A stretch of DNA of 23,293 nt, taken from positions 1 to 23,293 of IMG/VR virus record IMGVR_UViG_3300030419_002116. One strand, written 5' to 3'. The notes below the pieces were generated by a model. It saw only the letters and a program-made list of their open reading frames with translations. It did no database searches and had not been told where the DNA came from. The translations under genes were made by a program, and so were the position numbers. The first letter of the stretch is position 1; every line of letters starts with the position of its first letter. This DNA comes from a virus. Below, one piece after another: positions 3,272-17,325 of this stretch.

Positions 3272-3720
3272 TTATTGAGTTTTTCAAAATTCATTCTGAT
3301 GCCACAACTCCAACCAGAGCAAACCCATCAGATGCCGGGCTTGACATTTATGCGAGATTGGATTACGACCGTATGTGGATTGATCCCGGTTCATCTGCGG
3401 TAGTTCCTACTGGCATCAAAGTGGGTGTCCCACACGGCTATATGCTTCAGGTGATGAATCGTTCTAGTGTAGCAGCGAAGAGGAGTTTGATTGTGGGCGC
3501 TCATGTTATTGATTCTGGATATGACGGAGAGATTTTCATCAATCTACACAACGTAGGAGAGCGTGTCCAGTCGGTTCGTAATGGCGACAAGATCGCCCAG
3601 TTGGTTATGATTCCGGTTGTGTCTTTCCGCCCAGTAGAGCGCCAAGAAGATTCACTTTACAGCGATGGTATCACTATTTCAAACAGAGGCGATGGAGCCC
3701 TAGGGAGCACAGGTGGATAA
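3268..3720 (+). CDS. dut: dUTP diphosphatase (trimeric dUTPase)
   Basis: The enzyme hydrolyses dUTP to dUMP and pyrophosphate, keeping uracil out of DNA and feeding dTMP synthesis. All five motifs are present in 150 residues: motif 1 DAGLDI (22-27), motif 2 NRSSV (64-68), motif 3 IDSGYDGE (81-88), motif 4 GDKIAQLV (106-113) and motif 5 RGDGALGSTG (140-149). The usual motif 5 Phe (GFGSTG) is replaced by Leu. Length is normal for a homotrimeric enzyme. It starts at ATGA shared with the gene before and overlaps the possible GTG start of the next gene, so it is likely translated as part of one operon. Confidence 0.95.
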   Translation: MIIEFFKIHSDATTPTRANPSDAGLDIYARLDYDRMWIDPGSSAVVPTGIKVGVPHGYMLQVMNRSSVAAKRSLIVGAHVIDSGYDGEIFINLHNVGERVQSVRNGDKIAQLVMIPVVSFRPVERQEDSLYSDGITISNRGDGALGSTGG

Positions 3721-4192
3721 AACAACACGAGAAGTAATGTTTAGTTCAAAGTCTAATGAGTGGGCAACTCCACAATCATTTTTTGATAAACTAAACGAAA
3801 TGTATGGACCCTTCACTCTCGACGCCGCCGCATCCGATAAGAATTACAAGGTCGATACATATCTAACAGCAGACGATGACGCGCTTTCTGCTGACTGGTC
3901 TGGAAACACAGTATTTCTAAACCCCCCTTATGGACGCGGACTAAAAGAATGGATCCGCAAGTCTTATCAAGAGGGACAAAAGCAAGATACAACGGTGGTT
4001 ATGCTTATCCCCGCTCGCACCGACACAAAGTATTGGCACGACTATGTAATGAAGGCAGACGAGATTCGATTTGTTCGTGGCCGTATCAAGTTTGGCGATG
4101 AGACGAATAGCGCACCATTCCCATCAGCGGTGGTGGTTTTTCGCAGAACAAACTTCAACGGACCACGTATCACCGGAATGGAGCGCCCGTGA
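3713..4192 (+). CDS. Phage-type DNA N6-adenine methyltransferase (Dam, PF05869-like)
   Basis: 159 residues. The family opening SNEWATP (14-20) is followed by YGPFTLDAAAS (31-41) and the catalytic LNPPYGRG (69-76). This matches the small phage N6-adenine methyltransferases that modify adenine in DNA from S-adenosylmethionine. The probable role is protecting phage DNA from host nucleases or marking it. The GTG at 3713 overlaps the dut stop; an ATG at 3737 would give a protein 8 residues shorter that still contains the whole domain, and I cannot decide between them. The gene is unrelated in type to the second adenine methyltransferase at 9736. The stop overlaps the next GTG as GTGA. Confidence 0.85.
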   Translation: MDKTTREVMFSSKSNEWATPQSFFDKLNEMYGPFTLDAAASDKNYKVDTYLTADDDALSADWSGNTVFLNPPYGRGLKEWIRKSYQEGQKQDTTVVMLIPARTDTKYWHDYVMKADEIRFVRGRIKFGDETNSAPFPSAVVVFRRTNFNGPRITGMERP

Positions 4193-7527: not shown

Positions 7528-7944
7528 ATGACTTGGACTATTATTGCGGCGATTGGTTCGTTTGCGCTTGGTTACCTAACTTGTAGTATTTTCTACTTCG
7601 TTAGAAGTTCCCAAACATCCTTGGTAATCTTGAAGATGTCTCAAATCATCTACTTGAGTATCTTGATGAAGTGTATTGAAGATTGGTATTTTTCTCATAC
7701 TACCAAGTTGGATGCTTTGCGTAAAAGTGGCGTAAGTTATCAGGATCAGGCATATATTAAGATCAAAAAAGATCATGATAATAGCCTTGCGGCTTTCAAG
7801 GACAGGTCGATAAAGTTTCTGATTGAGAGCCACCCGGGACTATTTAAAGAAGCCATAGACTTTAACGACTGGCGAGGAGCGATGAGATTTCTAGAGAAGA
7901 ATAAAGAAATGGCTATTTTATTTAACAAAGGAATTAACCAATGA
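7528..7944 (+). CDS. Hypothetical protein with an N-terminal membrane anchor
   Basis: 138 residues. Residues 3-25 (WTIIAAIGSFALGYLTCSIF) form one transmembrane segment, and the rest is a soluble, mostly helical, basic domain that is not recognised. The first gene after the promoter and terminator at 7453-7518, with GGAGG four bases before ATG. It overlaps the ClpP-like gene by four bases (ATGA), so the two are probably co-translated. I cannot assign a function. Confidence 0.7.
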   Translation: MTWTIIAAIGSFALGYLTCSIFYFVRSSQTSLVILKMSQIIYLSILMKCIEDWYFSHTTKLDALRKSGVSYQDQAYIKIKKDHDNSLAAFKDRSIKFLIESHPGLFKEAIDFNDWRGAMRFLEKNKEMAILFNKGINQ

Positions 7945-8630
7945 TGAAGAAGATTCTATCAAAGATTTTAGATTTAGTTCTCGGACAGAAGGGAGAAGGT
8001 CCACCACCCACCGATGGGGAACCTCCACAGAAGCCATCCAAGGGCGTTACCTTGGAGCAAATACTTGGCGCAGCAGCCATGGAGGCTCCCAAGGAGCCAG
8101 ATTTGCGAGTTATCGGACTTTACTCTGATGTGAACGATGAGAAGATTGCTGAACTTACACAGGCTCTTCTTTATCTCTCAGAACTCAACCGCTTGCGCCC
8201 AGCAAAGCAAGAAGCAAAGCCAATCGAGTTCTATATTAACACCTATGGTGGTTCTGCTGATGATATGTTTGCTCTCTATGATGTTATGCAAACCGTGAAA
8301 GAAGAAACCGAAATTCACACTATCGGTGTTGGCAAGGTTATGTCCGCCGGCACCCTACTCCTCGCAGCAGGAACTAAGGGTAAGCGCAAGATTGGTCGCA
8401 ACTGCCGCGTAATGATTCACAATGTCGCAGCAGGAACTTTTGGGAACCTTCCCAACTTGGCCAACGAACTAGAAGCCATCCAGCAGTTGCAAGATGACTA
8501 CATTTCTGCTATGGTAGAACACACCAAGTTTACTCGAAAGAAGTTGGAGAAACTACTTAATGAAAAGGTGAACATATATCTTGACGCGGACGAAGCGGTC
8601 AAATATGGGCTTGCCGATGAGATAATGTGA
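7941..8630 (+). CDS. ClpP-like serine protease
   Basis: 229 residues. A Pro-rich N-terminal extension of about 50 residues precedes the ClpP core: LRVIGLYSDV, FYINTYGGSADDMFALYD (97-114), GKVMSAGTLLLAAG (131-144) with the nucleophile Ser135, CRVMIHNV (155-162) with His160, and LDADEAVKYGLADEIM at the end. The residue aligned with the third member of the E. coli triad (Asp171) is Asn211 in KVNIYLDAD, so activity may be altered. In other tailed phages ClpP-fold proteins act as head maturation proteases, but no capsid gene is near. Binding to host Clp ATPases is another option. ATG 7944 is an equally possible start. Confidence 0.88.
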   Translation: MMKKILSKILDLVLGQKGEGPPPTDGEPPQKPSKGVTLEQILGAAAMEAPKEPDLRVIGLYSDVNDEKIAELTQALLYLSELNRLRPAKQEAKPIEFYINTYGGSADDMFALYDVMQTVKEETEIHTIGVGKVMSAGTLLLAAGTKGKRKIGRNCRVMIHNVAAGTFGNLPNLANELEAIQQLQDDYISAMVEHTKFTRKKLEKLLNEKVNIYLDADEAVKYGLADEIM

Positions 8631-8639
8631 GGTTATATT

Positions 8640-9725
8640 ATGTCTGATACGTTGTTAATGCTTCTCGAAATGATGGAGGAGGCTTTGGAAGAGCAGGATT
8701 ATAGTAAAAATCTTAAAATGGCTCTAGATGCGATCAAAACTGAATCAGAAAACATGGGCTTCACTTATGAGGTTTTTGGCAAAAACAAGATTAGAATTAG
8801 AGCAGAAAATAGAGAGGCTGTGATGGCCGAAATGGAGCCCATTCTTTCGCGCTTTGGCTTCCAGCATCACGAAGACGGAAGTAGTCTCGGTAGACTACAA
8901 CTCAAGACGCCTGGAAGCCGAGACAACGTGTATGTTGTCTTTAAGCAGCCTGTTGGTGCAAACCCAGCCACTTTTGGCAATCAAGCAGAGCAAAAAATCG
9001 CTGATAGATTTAGTGAACTGTCGGGTGGTAAAGTAAAGGCTACTGCTGCCGGCGCAGGTCATGGTTCAGACATAGAGGTGATCGGACCCACCGGCACCTT
9101 GACAATAGAAAACAAAACTTCTTTGGGTGCTGATTTCGGTCAATTCCGACTCAGATATAATATGGAAACAGGACAATGGACCCCGTCCCCCACTAAGGGT
9201 TTTCAAAAAAATCAACATATTTTCTTGCCAATCTATACAAAGTATGCTAAAGATTATGTAGATAGGAATTACGTGTTACAACTACCAGAAAAAATAGAAG
9301 AGATTAAAGAAATATACAATGTTTCGGATTCAAAATATATTACCGGATTAAAAAGAGGACCACAGACCGCAGAAAGAAAAAGGGCTTTGGAGAAATCTTG
9401 GTTCAATGGGAAGACAGGAGCTTTTCATGATTTCCCCTTTTCCGAAATTTCCAGCTACTATGCCGACAAAAACGATAGATTTATAAATGTAGGCAGAAAA
9501 GGACTATTCGCTTTGAATCCAATTGATGCGAAAGACTTTGGTATACAAGAATTTGCAAATACTGAACTGGTTCCAAGTGTTAGGTTGAGGCTGAAGCCGT
9601 CATCTGGTGCAAATAGCAGCACCGGATTCATAGTAGCAATCAAAGTAAAAGGCAGGTTGGACAAAAGCAATATTAGCCTCAACAACGATCAAGATATACT
9701 AAAATTAATTAACCTAATCAGCTAA
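8640..9725 (+). CDS. Putative PD-(D/E)XK-type endonuclease
   Basis: 361 residues. An N-terminal helical and alpha/beta part (1-105) ends in NVYVVFKQPVGANPAT. Then come a helix with Glu117 (GNQAEQKIADRF) and the core GSDIEVIGPTGTLTIENK (142-159), where Asp144, Glu157 and Lys159 have the spacing of a PD-(D/E)XK nuclease active site. The C-terminal 200 residues, ending in a strand-rich part (VPSVRLRLKP, GFIVAIKVKGRL), are not recognised. The gene ends ten bases before an adenine methyltransferase start, which suggests a cutting and protecting pair. The nuclease call rests on motif spacing only; a DNA-binding protein without activity remains possible. Confidence 0.6.
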   Translation: MSDTLLMLLEMMEEALEEQDYSKNLKMALDAIKTESENMGFTYEVFGKNKIRIRAENREAVMAEMEPILSRFGFQHHEDGSSLGRLQLKTPGSRDNVYVVFKQPVGANPATFGNQAEQKIADRFSELSGGKVKATAAGAGHGSDIEVIGPTGTLTIENKTSLGADFGQFRLRYNMETGQWTPSPTKGFQKNQHIFLPIYTKYAKDYVDRNYVLQLPEKIEEIKEIYNVSDSKYITGLKRGPQTAERKRALEKSWFNGKTGAFHDFPFSEISSYYADKNDRFINVGRKGLFALNPIDAKDFGIQEFANTELVPSVRLRLKPSSGANSSTGFIVAIKVKGRLDKSNISLNNDQDILKLINLIS

Positions 9726-9735
9726 CGGAGGAAAC

Positions 9736-10497
9736 TTGAAATCACCACTACGTTATCCCGGCGGCAAAACACGCGCAATAAAGCACCTACTCCCCCACAT
9801 TCCAGAGGGAGACATTTGTTCCCCATTCTTGGGCGGCGGGTCATTAGAATTGGTGCTCTCAAAAGATAGAAAGGTCTATGCTTACGATGCCTTCTATCCT
9901 CTTTACAACTTTTGGAACTGCCTGCTCACAGATAAACAAAAGTTAGTGGAGAATGTTCGCAAGATACATCCTATTGAAAAGAACGACTTTAAGCATCTCC
10001 GTGAGATTCTAATCTCTTTTAAGCCTGGGGTTCCAAAAAGTTGCTTTACTGCGGCTGCTTATTTTGCAGTTAATCGATCTTCGTTCTCTGGCGCAACACT
10101 TTCTGGTGGGTTCTCACAGCAAGCAGCCGATGGCCGCTTTAACGAGAACAGCATCAAAAGACTTGAGAATTTCAGCGCACCCAACCTAAAAGTAGGCTTT
10201 GAGAGCTTCGAGGAGTCCATTCCTCGCCACGAAAAAGAGTTCCTGTATCTTGACCCTCCTTATTTTTTGGAAGCCAAGAGCAGGCTGTATGGAAAGAATG
10301 GAGATATGCACGAAGGTTTTGATCATAAATTATTACATTCCCTCTTGACAAGTCGCAAAAACTGGTTATTATGTTATAACGATTGCGAGTTTATACGAGC
10401 ACACTACAGCGACTATGAAATCATACCTGCTAAATGGGCTTACGGAATGAACAAGAGCAAAGAATCAAACGAAGTATTCATCATTTCACGAGGTTAA
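9736..10497 (+). CDS. dam: D12-class DNA N6-adenine methyltransferase (Dam-like)
   Basis: 253 residues with the class signature in order: LRYPGGKTRA (5-14), SPFLGGGSLEL (29-39, SAM binding), the substrate-side AAYFAVNRSSFSG (107-119), LSGGFS, and catalytic YLDPPYF (171-177). It transfers a methyl group from S-adenosylmethionine to adenine N6; GATC is the usual target of the class but cannot be read from sequence here. The start is TTG, behind GGAGG. Its neighbours are a putative PD-(D/E)XK nuclease just upstream and groEL one base downstream. A degenerate paralogue lies at 12944. A promoter-like sequence for groEL is inside its 3' part. Confidence 0.93.
   Translation: MKSPLRYPGGKTRAIKHLLPHIPEGDICSPFLGGGSLELVLSKDRKVYAYDAFYPLYNFWNCLLTDKQKLVENVRKIHPIEKNDFKHLREILISFKPGVPKSCFTAAAYFAVNRSSFSGATLSGGFSQQAADGRFNENSIKRLENFSAPNLKVGFESFEESIPRHEKEFLYLDPPYFLEAKSRLYGKNGDMHEGFDHKLLHSLLTSRKNWLLCYNDCEFIRAHYSDYEIIPAKWAYGMNKSKESNEVFIISRG
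10345..10372 (+). promoter_or_regulatory. Possible promoter for groEL inside the dam gene
   Basis: TTGACA (10345-10350), a 16-base spacer and TATTAT (10367-10372). The predicted start is about 120 bases before groEL. It lies in coding sequence and could be chance, but it matches the other promoters of the window in the -35 box. Confidence 0.45.
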
Positions 10498-10498
10498 A

Positions 10499-12076
10499 AT
10501 GACAAACAAAATGGTCTTCGCCAATAACGAAGAACTACGACAGAAAATCCTAAATGGGGCAAACACCCTTGCAGACTTTGTTTCTTCTACCCTTGGGCCA
10601 AAGGGCAGGACTGTTTTGCTTAAGGAGAAGGACAAGCCTGCTTTTGCAACCAAGGATGGAGTCACGTGCGCCCAATTTGTCCAACTTGACGATCCCTTTG
10701 AGGATGCAGGCGCCCAAGTTATTCGCCAAGCAGCAAACGAGACAAACACGAGTGCTGGCGATGGAACCACAACGGCTACCGTTCTTGCGAGAGCAATCCT
10801 AAACGAAGCACAACGACATATCGTTGCTGGTGTTTCGCCTATTGAACTACAGAGAGGTATTGATGCAACAGTCACAGAGATTTGTAGAAATCTCACAGAA
10901 ATGGCTCGACCTGTCAACAGCATTGACGATATCAAGCACATCGCCACTATTTCAGCGAACAATGACTCTGCCATTGGCGATCTTATTGCTCTGGCTGTGG
11001 ATAAAGTTGGTCAAGATGGGTCTATAACGATCGAGGAGTCTCGGTCACTAGACACTTCTATTGATGTTATGGAGGGCTTCCGCTTTCCCGCTGGCTATTG
11101 TGCGTCGGCTTTTGTGAACGATGAGCGCAGAAACATTATGACCCACGAACAGCCTCTTGTGATGGTTACAGACTACAAGATTACACAGGTAGAACAGATC
11201 CTTCCTATCCTTGAGTTGGTCGCACGAGAGGCACGCCCACTTGTTATCGTAGCAGAAGACCTTGAAGGGCAGGCACTTGCTGCTATGATTATGAACGCTA
11301 TGCGTGGCTCTTTGAAGATCGCTGGTATCAAGGCTCCGTTCTATGGAGAGGAACGCAGGCAGATGCTTTCGGATCTTGCCCTATCAACTGGCGCAACTTT
11401 TATCACCAGAGAATCAGGGCAAAAACTACAAAGCGTAACTCTTTCTGATTTGGGTTCGGCCAAGTCTATTGAGAGCACCAAAGTTGGAACCATCCTCGTC
11501 GGTGGCAACTGCGACTATGAAGCCGTAGAGACTCGTATCGAGAGCCTAAAAGCAGAAATAGAAAACACAGAAGACTTTGGGACTTGCGAACGCATCCAAG
11601 GTAGGATCGTGCGTCTTTCTTCTGGCGTTGCGGTTGTTCATGTTGGAGGAGCAACTCAAGTCGAGATGACTGAAAAGAAACATCGTATTGAGGATGCTTT
11701 GGAAGCCGTGCGCTCCGCACAAGAAGAAGGCGTCATTGGTGGCGGTGGCACCGCTTTGTTGCGTGCAAGCCATTCAGCCGAAATCACCCTAGAGCACAGC
11801 GAACAAAAGATTGGTATAGATATTGTTCGTCGCGCTTGTGAGGCACCATTCCGTCAAATGTGCAGAAACGGAGGCAAGAGCGAAGACCTACTTCTAAACC
11901 ATGTTTTAACGCAAGAGGAAGGCATGGGCTATGATTTCCGTGCTGGCGACTTGACAAACCTATATGACCGTGGTATATTAGATCCAGTGAGGGTAACAAA
12001 GTCTGCCTTAAAGAACGCAGCGTCTTGTGCAGGCACCCTCATAACAACCAACTATGGGATTATCCAGATAAAATGA
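10499..12076 (+). CDS. groEL: Phage-encoded GroEL-type chaperonin
   Basis: 525 residues, co-linear with GroEL. Visible are STLGPKGRTVLL (30-41), TKDGVT (51-56), the ATP site SAGDGTTTATVLARAI (85-100), RRQMLSDLALSTGA, RIEDALEAVRSAQEEGV with the catalytic Asp, and GGGGTALL. It would fold proteins in an ATP-driven ring. The C terminus stops at ITTNYGIIQIK and lacks the GGM repeat tail that fills the base of the GroEL cavity. No GroES-like gene is in the window, so it may use the host co-chaperonin or one elsewhere. The start follows ACGAGG at good spacing. The 3' end holds a strong promoter, and the stop overlaps the next ATG. Confidence 0.95.
   Translation: MTNKMVFANNEELRQKILNGANTLADFVSSTLGPKGRTVLLKEKDKPAFATKDGVTCAQFVQLDDPFEDAGAQVIRQAANETNTSAGDGTTTATVLARAILNEAQRHIVAGVSPIELQRGIDATVTEICRNLTEMARPVNSIDDIKHIATISANNDSAIGDLIALAVDKVGQDGSITIEESRSLDTSIDVMEGFRFPAGYCASAFVNDERRNIMTHEQPLVMVTDYKITQVEQILPILELVAREARPLVIVAEDLEGQALAAMIMNAMRGSLKIAGIKAPFYGEERRQMLSDLALSTGATFITRESGQKLQSVTLSDLGSAKSIESTKVGTILVGGNCDYEAVETRIESLKAEIENTEDFGTCERIQGRIVRLSSGVAVVHVGGATQVEMTEKKHRIEDALEAVRSAQEEGVIGGGGTALLRASHSAEITLEHSEQKIGIDIVRRACEAPFRQMCRNGGKSEDLLLNHVLTQEEGMGYDFRAGDLTNLYDRGILDPVRVTKSALKNAASCAGTLITTNYGIIQIK
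11951..11979 (+). promoter_or_regulatory. Sigma-70-type promoter in the end of groEL
   Basis: TTGACA (11951-11956), 17 bases, TATATT (11974-11979), in the last 130 bases of groEL. The expected start near 11986 would give a leader of about 90 bases to the gene at 12073. Spacing and hexamers equal those of the intergenic promoters. Confidence 0.65.
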
Positions 12077-12591: not shown

Positions 12592-12984
12592 ATGGGACAA
12601 CGAGTAAACATCCAGTATTCTGTGGATTTGGAAGAACTACAAGGTGAAGTTAACAGACTTTTTGATAAGACAACCACAGAGCTTATTTCATTGGGCTCTG
12701 GATGGGGAACACATGAATTTGTCCCCATGGATGTTGCTGGCGCTGAAATGATTGACAATATACGCCAACGGCTTACACGCTTGGACATTATGCTTGGAGA
12801 TATCCAAAACATTGTTCAGGGATATATTCGTTTCAGGGCAACCCCTACAACAAACGAAGTCCAAAAAGCCGAAATTCCCTCACCACCCTCACAAGAGACT
12901 GAGAGTCTAGAAGATAGTATTGCTCGCTTTAAGGAATTGATAAATGAGAAGCCCGATCAAGAATCTGAAAAACTCAACGAATAG
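12592..12984 (+). CDS. Hypothetical protein
   Basis: 130 residues. The start, GQRVNIQYSVDLEELQGEVN, leads to a long helical part (25-85: RLFDKTTTELISLG, MIDNIRQRLTRLDIMLGDIQ), then a Pro/Thr-rich linker and an acidic tail. This looks like a small coiled-coil protein that forms oligomers. No family is recognised. AAGGG precedes the ATG and the 3' end overlaps the next gene by 41 bases. Confidence 0.7.
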   Translation: MGQRVNIQYSVDLEELQGEVNRLFDKTTTELISLGSGWGTHEFVPMDVAGAEMIDNIRQRLTRLDIMLGDIQNIVQGYIRFRATPTTNEVQKAEIPSPPSQETESLEDSIARFKELINEKPDQESEKLNE

Positions 12985-13687
12985 TTTGGCTGTTTTAAGA
13001 GAACTTATCCCAAAAGGCTCTGTTGTAGAGTCTTATCCTTTTTACGATGGTAATGTGGAATTTACTCTCAGTCAGAGTGACAGGTTTTTAATCGGAACTA
13101 CTGATAGTCCGGTGGTTTTTGAGTTTTGGAAATTTGTTATGGATGACCCAAGGCGTGTTTCGCTGATCGCAGACAAGCTGTTTTCCATCGTAGAAGAAAA
13201 TACATTTGACATTCTCAGAAAAAAGTGGTTTACTTATAAAGATCCTTATACTCGGTCAGCCTTGTTTTTTCTTTTGAATCGGTGCTCTGAGATTGGAATG
13301 ATTTCTCATGGAGACATGAATACTAAAAATTATAATCCGTTAGCAATAAATGCTTTAAGAACCTTTGAAATCTCAAACTTTCATCTTAACTTTTTAAAAG
13401 AAAAAACAATCTTTGATCAAACTAGCGGAGAGATAAATCTATTTATACCTGGAAACTATTGCTATGATGTGTTATCGACTATGCCGCCTATTGGTATAGA
13501 AGAAAGTCACTTCAAGCATGTAAAGACACTAAAGCACTTTACAAAAGAAAAGAGCATTTTTGTCTATCAGTTTCATAAGGCGTTGCTTAACAACAGAAAT
13601 TATGATAAAATTCTTATAGATCAATACGGGAAAAGAACAAACGACCACGCTTCTGCAAAGGAAATAATCCTCCATAATGTACGATAA
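12944..13687 (+). CDS. Degenerate D12 adenine methyltransferase paralogue (predicted inactive)
   Basis: 247 residues that align end to end with the methyltransferase at 9736. MRSPIKN fits MKSPLRY, SYPFYDGNVEFTLSQ (30-44) fits SPFLGGGSLELVLS, FEFW (59-62) fits YNFW, and SALFFLLNRCSEIG (105-118) fits AAYFAVNRSSFSG. The catalytic and cofactor residues are gone: PGGK is replaced by LKNS, the glycines of motif I are mostly lost, and DPPY is PGNY (169-172). It is therefore probably a pseudo-enzyme, perhaps a DNA-binding partner, regulator or decoy. The frame is intact with good length, which argues against decay. AAGGAA precedes the ATG. Confidence 0.7.
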   Translation: MRSPIKNLKNSTNSLAVLRELIPKGSVVESYPFYDGNVEFTLSQSDRFLIGTTDSPVVFEFWKFVMDDPRRVSLIADKLFSIVEENTFDILRKKWFTYKDPYTRSALFFLLNRCSEIGMISHGDMNTKNYNPLAINALRTFEISNFHLNFLKEKTIFDQTSGEINLFIPGNYCYDVLSTMPPIGIEESHFKHVKTLKHFTKEKSIFVYQFHKALLNNRNYDKILIDQYGKRTNDHASAKEIILHNVR

Positions 13688-14391: not shown

Positions 14392-17325
14392 ATGTCGTTT
14401 GCTACTGATAAATGGTTTCGCCACGTCCGCGAAGAACTGCTAACCGAGGGTCTTGGAGACATAGGACTTAGCGAAGATAATGTAAACAGGATTAGAATGG
14501 AACTCCCCGACGCCAGCGAGAAAGGTCGCGTATGGGTCGGGAACGCTCTAAAAGACTACGGAACTCGGACCACCCACGGTCCCAGAATTACACTAAGAGC
14601 CCAAATTCGGGAAGACTACAAAGACATCGAGGAAGCCTACAAAGACAAGTTCCAAAAAGGCGACTTCAACATCCTAACGCAATATATGAAGGTCATTAGC
14701 GGACAGCCAATCAAGAAATGGCCGAAAGCCAAAAAGTCCTTCATCAAAAACTCCCGCAAGTTAGGCGTCAGCGATGCGATTATAAACACCGTCACGCTTT
14801 TTGTTGATGAGGTGGAGGGCAAAGTTTTTAGTGAGTTTGCGAGTAGATTACAAAGTATATTTGTTACTCTCAACCAGAATCCCAACAACTACGAGATAAT
14901 AAAGGACTATCCCCCCACTGCATGGGACGAGGCAGAAGAGGAGTGTTTTCATTTTCAACAAAATCAAGAAGATCCAGACGACATCCTTCATACATTTGAG
15001 GACGGCTCCTATTGGTATGATCTTAATACATCCAACTGCAAGTACGAGGGCGAAAGGATGGGGCATTGTGGGAGAGACAACCGAGGCGGGCTCTATTCTC
15101 TTCGCAAGAGAGGCAAGGGCAAAAAAGAATCTAAGTCCTATGTAACCATATCCTATAACGCCTACGAAAGCACCATTTACCAGATCAAAGGTCGCTCCAA
15201 CACTTGCCCACCAGAAGAGATGTGGCCACACATCGAGTGGTTTATTGAAGAGATGCACGCCACCAAACTTGAAGAGACTGGCGAGTATTCATCCGAAGAA
15301 GACGAGTTTCAGGTAATGGGTCAGCACCTCGCAGATGCCACAGGAATAGAGTTTGAAGGCGGTATTGATGCAAGAACGAACGAGTTGCGTGACGAGTGCG
15401 AATCATATTTGGATACCTTCCAACGAGAATACTCCGATCAGGCTGTCCGTAGCGGCTTGGATGTTGATGCTGACGACTTCGGGGCTGGGCTCCAACCCTA
15501 TTGGTCAGATAGACTCGAAGAAATTTGTGTGGAACTCCCATTTCAGTTTTTAAATAAAGAATCTTTGGGCTACGGAGTAATAGAGGAAGAAATAATTGAG
15601 GAGATACAAGAGGCTATAGACTCTGAAGATCGAAAAGATCTCTTTCAAATGCGCTGGTCGGATCAACCCGAGTTGTTCTTTACAAAAGCAAATAGTTATG
15701 AGGACGCCATAAGAAAGTCAAACAATCATTATGGCAACACAGAGTCAGGCGCCGTCGCCGAAGGAGAGAACACTTACTTGGTCCTTATGAGCCTCGATAG
15801 CAGTATGACCGAATGGTTTAACGATAACAATGGCGACAACTATTCAAGCGATGGTTATTCATCTTTTCTAGAAGGAATAGAAGAACTTATAGAAGATGTT
15901 GACGATGCGCTGGATGAGATCGAAGGGGTCTTGGTCAAAGCAGGCTTGGTAGCAAAACCAAAAATCAAGGGCTATGTTGAAAAGGTCGAAGGAGAATTCA
16001 ACAACTTCCAAATAAGCACATACAAAGCCAAACGAGGAGAGTATAGCATCATCGCCACGGGCATTGCTATCAAGACAACCCAAGACGAAATGGATACTCT
16101 TCTTGGACCAGTCTCATTTGTGGAGACTTTCACAGCGAAGGATGGGTATAAAACGAGTTCAGGTTATTATACAAGCCCCCTGTTCAAGGCAGATGTGATA
16201 GACGAGTTGTCTAGCCATCAAGCACAAGCAGTAAAGTTTGCTAAAAGCCAGATGAAGTTAAACTACGGAGAACAATACGAAGAAAAGATTGAAAACTTTT
16301 GGGATAAAATGTCAGAAAACAACAAACTCTTTTACGACTCGATTTTCATTGGCTTTGGGATCAAGCGCGGCTCAAAGGGATCTCGGACACCCCGCCCCGG
16401 TTCCGTAATAGATTCAGAAAACTATTTCAGTTATAAAATGGAAGTTATCTTAAATGAAAAAACATTACCATTTTATGGTCCATTTTTGGAATACTACGAC
16501 AACAACTTTCAACTAGTTATTGACGCATTTGACGATGCGATCAGAGAGCAGATCCGACGGGCTGTCAGGAAGTTTAAGAAGGAGACTGGTAACGACACAA
16601 ACCTTCCGCTTCAAGAAGTTGAGAGCCCATTTGATGTAAGGGTCTATGAAATAGACTTTGTTATGTCCTACCCTCTTGGCCAAGGTTTTGAAATCACCGA
16701 CATTCACAACATCATTCGTGCTATTCCCGATGTTACAACCATCAGAAGCATTGGTCACGCCAAGAGAACTCAAGGCAACAGGACCGCTTCACTTCAACAT
16801 TTGAAGTTTGCTCTACAAGGGCAAAGAAGCAGAATGGATTGGGTCCAGCAGATCCTATTACCACAGATCCGCAAGATCGATAATCGTATTAGGATTCACA
16901 AAGTTGAGCGTGCCGAGTTGGTTTCTTCAAGCAAGAGCCTCCGCGAAAATTGGTCCACACCCTACCAGCGCCAAGCGCCCGCTATGGTTACTCCCCGAGC
17001 AACCATCAGGCAAACTTTGGAAGATTGGGTCCAGGGTGGCGTGATGTACGATAGTCCCATGCACACCAATCTTTCAAGTTATCATGTGATGGTTCCAGTA
17101 GAAGAACTGGAGCCCTATATGAGCCGCCAAGCAAGGAAGCACGGACACCACTTTGATGCTGGTTACGAAAACTTTATTGCTAATGGTCCCGTGCAACCTA
17201 TTTACTTGGCGATAGGAAAAAATGGGAGAGTGAAAATCACAGGCAATGAAGATGATTTACGCTATGCTTTGAAAGCAGGAGTAAAGGAAGTTCCAGTATT
17301 CTTTTCTTATCAAAGGCAGGTTTAA
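14392..17325 (+). CDS. 977-residue composite protein with PcfJ-like and ParB-like segments
   Basis: The longest gene of the window. An N-terminal helix contains LLTEGLGDIGLS (16-27). Residues 200-285 (SYWYDLNTSNCKYEGERMGH, YSLRKRGKGK, TIYQIKGRSN) follow the pattern EG-x-x-M-x-HC, then YSLR and QIKGRxN, known from PcfJ-like proteins of mobile elements and phages. Residues 290-640 are acidic and variable. A possible ferredoxin-like part contains MSYPLGQGFEITDIHNIIR and IPDVTTIRSI. The last 90 residues (PVEELEPYM, then PIYLAIGKNGRVKITGNEDD, and EVPVFF) look like a ParB/Srx fold, where G-x-x-PI, a central turn and EVPV are typical. ParB-like domains can bind CTP or act as nucleases. The overall role is unknown. 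GGGAG precedes the ATG. Confidence 0.75.
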   Translation: MSFATDKWFRHVREELLTEGLGDIGLSEDNVNRIRMELPDASEKGRVWVGNALKDYGTRTTHGPRITLRAQIREDYKDIEEAYKDKFQKGDFNILTQYMKVISGQPIKKWPKAKKSFIKNSRKLGVSDAIINTVTLFVDEVEGKVFSEFASRLQSIFVTLNQNPNNYEIIKDYPPTAWDEAEEECFHFQQNQEDPDDILHTFEDGSYWYDLNTSNCKYEGERMGHCGRDNRGGLYSLRKRGKGKKESKSYVTISYNAYESTIYQIKGRSNTCPPEEMWPHIEWFIEEMHATKLEETGEYSSEEDEFQVMGQHLADATGIEFEGGIDARTNELRDECESYLDTFQREYSDQAVRSGLDVDADDFGAGLQPYWSDRLEEICVELPFQFLNKESLGYGVIEEEIIEEIQEAIDSEDRKDLFQMRWSDQPELFFTKANSYEDAIRKSNNHYGNTESGAVAEGENTYLVLMSLDSSMTEWFNDNNGDNYSSDGYSSFLEGIEELIEDVDDALDEIEGVLVKAGLVAKPKIKGYVEKVEGEFNNFQISTYKAKRGEYSIIATGIAIKTTQDEMDTLLGPVSFVETFTAKDGYKTSSGYYTSPLFKADVIDELSSHQAQAVKFAKSQMKLNYGEQYEEKIENFWDKMSENNKLFYDSIFIGFGIKRGSKGSRTPRPGSVIDSENYFSYKMEVILNEKTLPFYGPFLEYYDNNFQLVIDAFDDAIREQIRRAVRKFKKETGNDTNLPLQEVESPFDVRVYEIDFVMSYPLGQGFEITDIHNIIRAIPDVTTIRSIGHAKRTQGNRTASLQHLKFALQGQRSRMDWVQQILLPQIRKIDNRIRIHKVERAELVSSSKSLRENWSTPYQRQAPAMVTPRATIRQTLEDWVQGGVMYDSPMHTNLSSYHVMVPVEELEPYMSRQARKHGHHFDAGYENFIANGPVQPIYLAIGKNGRVKITGNEDDLRYALKAGVKEVPVFFSYQRQV

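Follow-up and report, generated by a model that had tools for sequence, protein, structure and literature searches.

The window analyzed here is a 23-kb virus record of 23,293 nucleotides, in which a predicted nuclease gene and an adenine methyltransferase gene lie between genes for a ClpP-like protease and a GroEL-like chaperonin. The interval between clpP and D12/GroEL, occupied here by the nuclease gene, is referred to as the slot. The features of the locus are as follows:

7941–8630, + strand: ClpP-like protease gene (PF00574, E 2.1e-36), the constant upstream flank, syntenic in relatives.
8640–8693, + strand: conserved leader of 18 codons (MSDTLLMLLEMMEEALEE), common to slot proteins with otherwise unrelated bodies.
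8640–9725, + strand: predicted PD-(D/E)XK nuclease gene, ATG start, 361 aa, assigned from the catalytic alignment and the model; it consists of the leader (residues 1–18), an alpha/beta domain (~23–102), and the nuclease domain (~109–361, with E117, D144, E157, K159, and Q168).
9726–9735, + strand: 10-bp gap with the D12 Shine-Dalgarno sequence GGAGG, the downstream boundary of cassette exchange.
9736–10497, + strand: D12-class adenine-N6 DNA methyltransferase gene, TTG start, 253 aa (PF02086).
10499–12076, + strand: GroEL-like chaperonin gene, named from its sequence, the constant downstream flank, syntenic in relatives.

The original prediction was that a 361-residue protein with PD-(D/E)XK spacing (Asp144, Glu157, Lys159) stops ten bases before D12. 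The ORFs were confirmed at 8640–9725 (TAA stop at 9723–9725) and 9736–10497. The 361-residue protein matched no Pfam or NCBIfam family. It matched phrog_26930 weakly (E 1.8e-4) and the cyanophage protein P-TIM40_181 (E 8e-7), which, when used as a bridge query, led to 59 viral-contig loci. In an alignment of 18 sequences, with homologues 21–67% identical to the window nuclease, residues G113, E117, D144, E157, K159, Q168, Y273, Y274, R317, and K319 were invariant. The three predicted residues were thus conserved throughout, in the D...(E/D)xK arrangement of the PD-(D/E)XK superfamily.

The AF2 model built on this alignment (pLDDT 83.7, pTM 0.67) replaced a single-sequence structure prediction with a pLDDT of 37.6. 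In the alignment-based model, D144, E157, and K159 are borne by strands 145–148 and 153–159. A Foldseek search of the PDB with the model returned nothing at E ≤ 0.001. A second look with VIA-align matched residues 111–359 to R.HhaI (6uke; Z 10.9, rmsd 4.2, 181 residues, 20% identity), and Hjc resolvases were the next fold match (Z ~7). Hjc also ranked first, weakly, in a profile search of PDB sequences (E 0.017). The model and the matches to R.HhaI and Hjc show the alpha-beta core fold of the superfamily. Based on the alignment and the model, the 361-residue protein is a predicted PD-(D/E)XK nuclease of HhaI/Hjc-like fold, with the fold assigned from this single structural model. The N-terminal domain (residues 1–104) resembled nucleotidyltransferase folds (Z 6–7), a match that was too weak and was not used. 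No literature linking HhaI plus Hjc was found, and the nuclease had no plasmid matches. When viral contigs were scanned for the window nuclease using short exact patterns, no relatives were returned; L073 and L077, whose nucleases are 65–68% identical to the window nuclease, were missed and were reached later via D12. The same type of scan of bacterial genomes with the L077 homologue as the query found no relatives. Because these scans use short exact patterns, absence from them is weak evidence.

The D12 protein matched PF02086 (E 1.8e-27) and phrog_56 (E 4.7e-44), and its GGG and DPPY motifs, as found in the D12 class, are intact and invariant in relatives. Syntenic loci were gathered by scans with the D12 protein and a ClpP alignment, and the contigs compared are metagenomic fragments. 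The gene order in close relatives is guaB–...–clpP–slot–D12–GroEL, and the GroEL-like protein is 87–90% identical in most full-length close relatives (59% in L086). The near relative G001 (191 kb) encodes a T4-type prohead protease of gp21 type (PF03420, E 5.6e-30) and a gp23-type major capsid protein (PF07068, E 7.2e-60), which places the clade among T4-like phages. Of note, a second adenine methyltransferase gene, of the phage Dam family (PF05869, E 3.9e-34), is located at 3713–4192 of the window, and a similar ORF is found at 15657–16136 of G001. A degenerate D12 paralogue is located at 12944–13687 (hhalign against the D12 family, E 2.9e-18, 238 columns). It has lost GGG and DPPY and is found at 33–59% identity in relatives, also where D12 is missing. 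As judged from its motifs, it is probably a catalytically dead methyltransferase retained for another role.

In 22 syntenic contigs, the slot is occupied by several kinds of PD-(D/E)XK-like body that show little or no detectable homology to one another. Type A (window, L073, L077/L078) and type A' (L068b, L082b, L085) carry the motif GSDI..ENK/ELK, and L079 and L084 are further relatives of these types. Type C/E comprises eight sequences (L069, L080, L081, L086, L076, L091, L102, L115) with the invariant residues KTD ... SVKK ... E218, a layout that we take to resemble the Cfr10I/NgoMIV arrangement. Type B, found in L068a, L082a, L117, and more distant phages, carries the motif E..D..SLK with an invariant GF..E. 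Type D is a single allele (L070 group), and type H is represented by 2 sequences (L126, L127, L137). Type F (L083) belongs to phrog_3560 (E 3.4e-24) and clusters with type A, yet has its own motif spacing. In hhalign, types A and C/E aligned just over a 20-residue leader (E 8.7e-10), types A and H over the leader and the catalytic region, and types A and B weakly. No slot protein matched a Pfam family above the cut-off; types B–F and H are putative PD-(D/E)XK-like nucleases, nuclease-like by motif only. In L147–L178, the slot of the clpP-GroEL interval holds family-B proteins of ~410–550 aa, with no D12, and many of these proteins have a longer conserved N-terminus (MSDYIKDMFIEVREKDETISPLTELEQMIEEV..). 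In L079 (3329–5004), the slot contains two tandem nuclease-like ORFs, the second of which (L079b, 243 aa, A-like) is without the leader.

The boundaries of the exchange are sharp. Nucleotide homology of the flanks (83–96%) breaks off 43–52 nt after the start of the slot gene and begins again at the D12 GGAGG. The edges are the leader of 18 codons (MSDSLLMLLEMIEEVLEE) on one side and the ribosome-binding site of D12 on the other, and the exchange is confined to the nuclease body. The slot ORF of many relatives extends into the GGAGG site of D12, which is why the proteins end in ..EET; this accounts for the C-terminal EET that several slot proteins share and that might otherwise be taken for a protein signal. 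Whole nuclease bodies have been replaced by recombination, while the leader, the methyltransferase, and the flanks stay. The slot between clpP and D12/GroEL is exchangeable in this clade of T4-like marine phages, and the locus looks like an exchangeable weapon slot.

This exchange bears on two alternative roles of the nuclease. A housekeeping function as an Hjc-like recombination or resolution nuclease would agree with Hjc being the second-best fold and the best profile match, and with the cyanophage homologues being part of the replication region, close to uvsX and gp41. However, relatives have other nuclease types or none, as one would not expect of a core function, and this role is quite improbable. 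Alternatively, the nuclease could act in homing or marker exclusion, cutting the region in rivals with another allele or an empty slot, so that recombination spreads the cassette. Empty and filled alleles, the sharp boundaries, and the mosaic distribution are what such a process could produce, and nuclease genes are known at phage exchange boundaries (PMC10448857). The phage enzymes surveyed in that work, however, belong to families such as T5orf172 and IPA-HNH, PD-(D/E)XK restriction-like enzymes with a common selected leader are not typical of homing, and insertion into a recognizable target was not found. Homing is an unlikely explanation of the locus.

The original prediction further held that the nuclease and D12 form a type II restriction-modification-like module, in which the nuclease would cut unmodified rival or host DNA and D12 would methylate the same site in the phage. 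As in type II systems, the nuclease and methyltransferase genes are adjacent, with the 10-bp gap giving the geometry of one operon, and the nuclease has an R.HhaI-like fold in the model. The search for the gene pair in other phages revealed that the slot protein always accompanies D12 in the clpP-GroEL interval (22 of 22 contigs with D12). By hand count, slot protein and D12 occurred together in 22 contigs (window and L091 included, several near-identical), the slot was filled without D12 in about 20 intervals and empty in 17, and D12 without a slot protein was found in 0; these are counts of contigs, not of independent events. As D12 in this interval never occurred without a slot protein, some functional link is possible.

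The specificity-matched co-evolution of a type II pair was not found. D12 is 72–99% identical across the 22 syntenic contigs, and it is nearly the same next to different nucleases: 99% identical between L073 (type A) and L076 (type E), 97% between L069 (C) and L070 (D), 97% between L077 (A) and L082 (B + A'), and 95% between L081 (C) and L085 (A'). These sequence comparisons argue strongly against matched specificity of the nuclease and D12. In addition, D12 relatives in L087–L092 (70–72% identical to that of the window) are located between SSB-like and RecA/UvsX-like genes with no nuclease, and the cyanophage nuclease homologues are located between mazG or purH and a cytidyltransferase gene with no annotated D12. 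If the nuclease had kept the GCGC site of HhaI, an adenine methyltransferase would be unable to protect that site. The window also shows no avoidance of GCGC (55 observed against 63 expected). Because D12 stays 95–99% identical beside different nucleases, it is probable that the nuclease is not its cognate partner and that the two do not make up a matched restriction-modification pair; the type II reading is highly improbable. Of the original module, the adjacency, the nuclease assignment, and the co-occurrence stood, whereas the matched pair did not, with nucleases being swapped next to a constant D12.

A more convincing pair of the restriction-modification type than that of the window was observed in G001, where a 162-aa MunI-like restriction enzyme (PF11407, E 1.4e-5) overlaps a second D12 (L182:11965–13376). 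CAATTG was not avoided in G001 (74 observed, 65 expected). A search for one avoided palindrome linked to the type of nuclease found none. The window strongly avoids GGCC (21 observed, 62 expected) and AGCT (14 observed, 82 expected); GGCC is strongly avoided in all tested relatives as well, and AGCT in several. CTGCAG, GTCGAC, CTCGAG, GAGCTC, GACGTC, and others are absent from G001. The avoidance of GGCC and AGCT suggests host restriction pressure.

The leader was compared using 26 distinct DNA versions. Codons 1–18 are shared, and divergence begins after L16-x-E18, in which x is variable. E18 is present in 23 of the 26 versions and is missing in L082, L117, and L085 (types B and A'). A second conserved L-x-E is located at positions 8–10. 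For codons 2–18, pN/pS was 0.37 in 14 of the 26 versions, which are related and few. This value points to selection on the leader peptide and makes it less likely that the leader serves only to anchor recombination. A degenerate pattern of the leader DNA was found in 17 IMG/VR contigs, with the end of clpP directly upstream in all 17, and a position-specific scan detected no further copy in G001 or the window. Like L079b, the cyanophage homologues are without the leader.

Such a leader could serve as a capsid-targeting sequence (CTS), in which case the nuclease would be packaged into the head, cleaved after L-x-E by a gp21-type protease, and injected. The T4 Ip proteins likewise share just an N-terminal leader (PMC12373910, PMC3012670). 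The conserved block of the slot leader stops at L-x-E18 with a variable x, the leader is under purifying selection, and G001 has gp21 and gp23 homologues. However, the slot leader is unlike the MKLLLENWRKFLTE-type leaders, the evident candidates for a CTS in G001, and the second conserved L-x-E at 8–10 makes the cleavage reading ambiguous. Packaging, as a special case of a stand-alone cassette, is a tentative proposal that we regard as possible but doubtful. In G001 (58136–61271, loci L184–L185), five consecutive genes have MKLL(L/I)ENWR-type leaders followed by E. As read from their sequences, these leaders resemble T4 capsid targeting sequences, and the genes likely form an internal-protein array. 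Since the slot leader differs from these T4-CTS-like leaders, any packaging signal in it would be a different one.

The best explanation of the locus, which we consider likely, is an interchangeable stand-alone nuclease cassette behind a selected leader, independent of D12. The nuclease would most likely act as a stand-alone DNA-cutting effector against non-self DNA, with rival phage, satellite, plasmid, or host DNA as candidate targets, and nuclease diversity may be favored because these targets vary. The leader is a peptide under selection that probably directs the different nucleases to a single shared location or partner. Speculatively, this destination could be the prohead, in which case the nuclease would be cleaved after L-x-E and injected when the phage next infects, although we would not expect it. 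D12 would act independently, as an orphan-like methyltransferase that may give the phage DNA general protection. That T4-like marine phages pack swappable restriction-fold nucleases via one leader and, by injecting them, destroy the DNA of rivals, satellites, or the host is, taken as a whole, rather unlikely. These likelihoods are not mutually exclusive, as packaging belongs within the stand-alone cassette.

The locus, in which one constant leader under selection precedes nucleases of several unrelated types, provides a panel of uncharacterized marine-phage PD-(D/E)XK enzymes. It is also a direct test case for whether phages deliver or deploy DNA-cutting weapons in a modular way, as T4 does with its restriction inhibitors. 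If packaged, the slot nucleases would be internal proteins that attack DNA and do not inhibit nucleases, beside a constant methyltransferase. The locus also cautions that gene adjacency alone is insufficient to name a restriction-modification system.

Among the closest known systems, phrog_26930 and PSSM2_192 of P-SSM2 (BFVD match Q58MG2) have a homologous nuclease domain, with the invariant residues shared by the cyanophage relatives. These proteins have no leader, no N-terminal domain, and no annotated D12 neighbor, whereas the window nuclease has all three. R.HhaI, a type IIP restriction enzyme, is the best fold match (residues 111–359). Compared with R.HhaI, the window nuclease has an extra N-terminal leader and alpha/beta domain, and it adjoins an adenine methyltransferase, whereas the counterpart of R.HhaI is a cytosine-5 methyltransferase. 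The orphan phage D12 methyltransferases of L087–L092 adjoin SSB-like and RecA/UvsX-like genes, whereas the window D12 follows the nuclease slot. ICP1 carries either Odn or CRISPR-Cas at one locus, against satellites (PMC8263062), and thus, like the slot, has alternative DNA-cutting systems at one phage locus. Odn is a chimeric origin-directed nuclease against PLE satellites, whereas the slot proteins have predicted restriction-type PD-(D/E)XK folds and a common leader. T4 Ip1-3 have only a leader in common and are injected (PMC12373910, PMC3012670). The T4 internal-protein loci and the slot each combine a short conserved leader with bodies without mutual homology at a hypervariable locus of a T4-like phage. 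The T4 Ip proteins inhibit GmrSD nucleases, whereas the slot bodies follow another leader sequence and are themselves nuclease-like.
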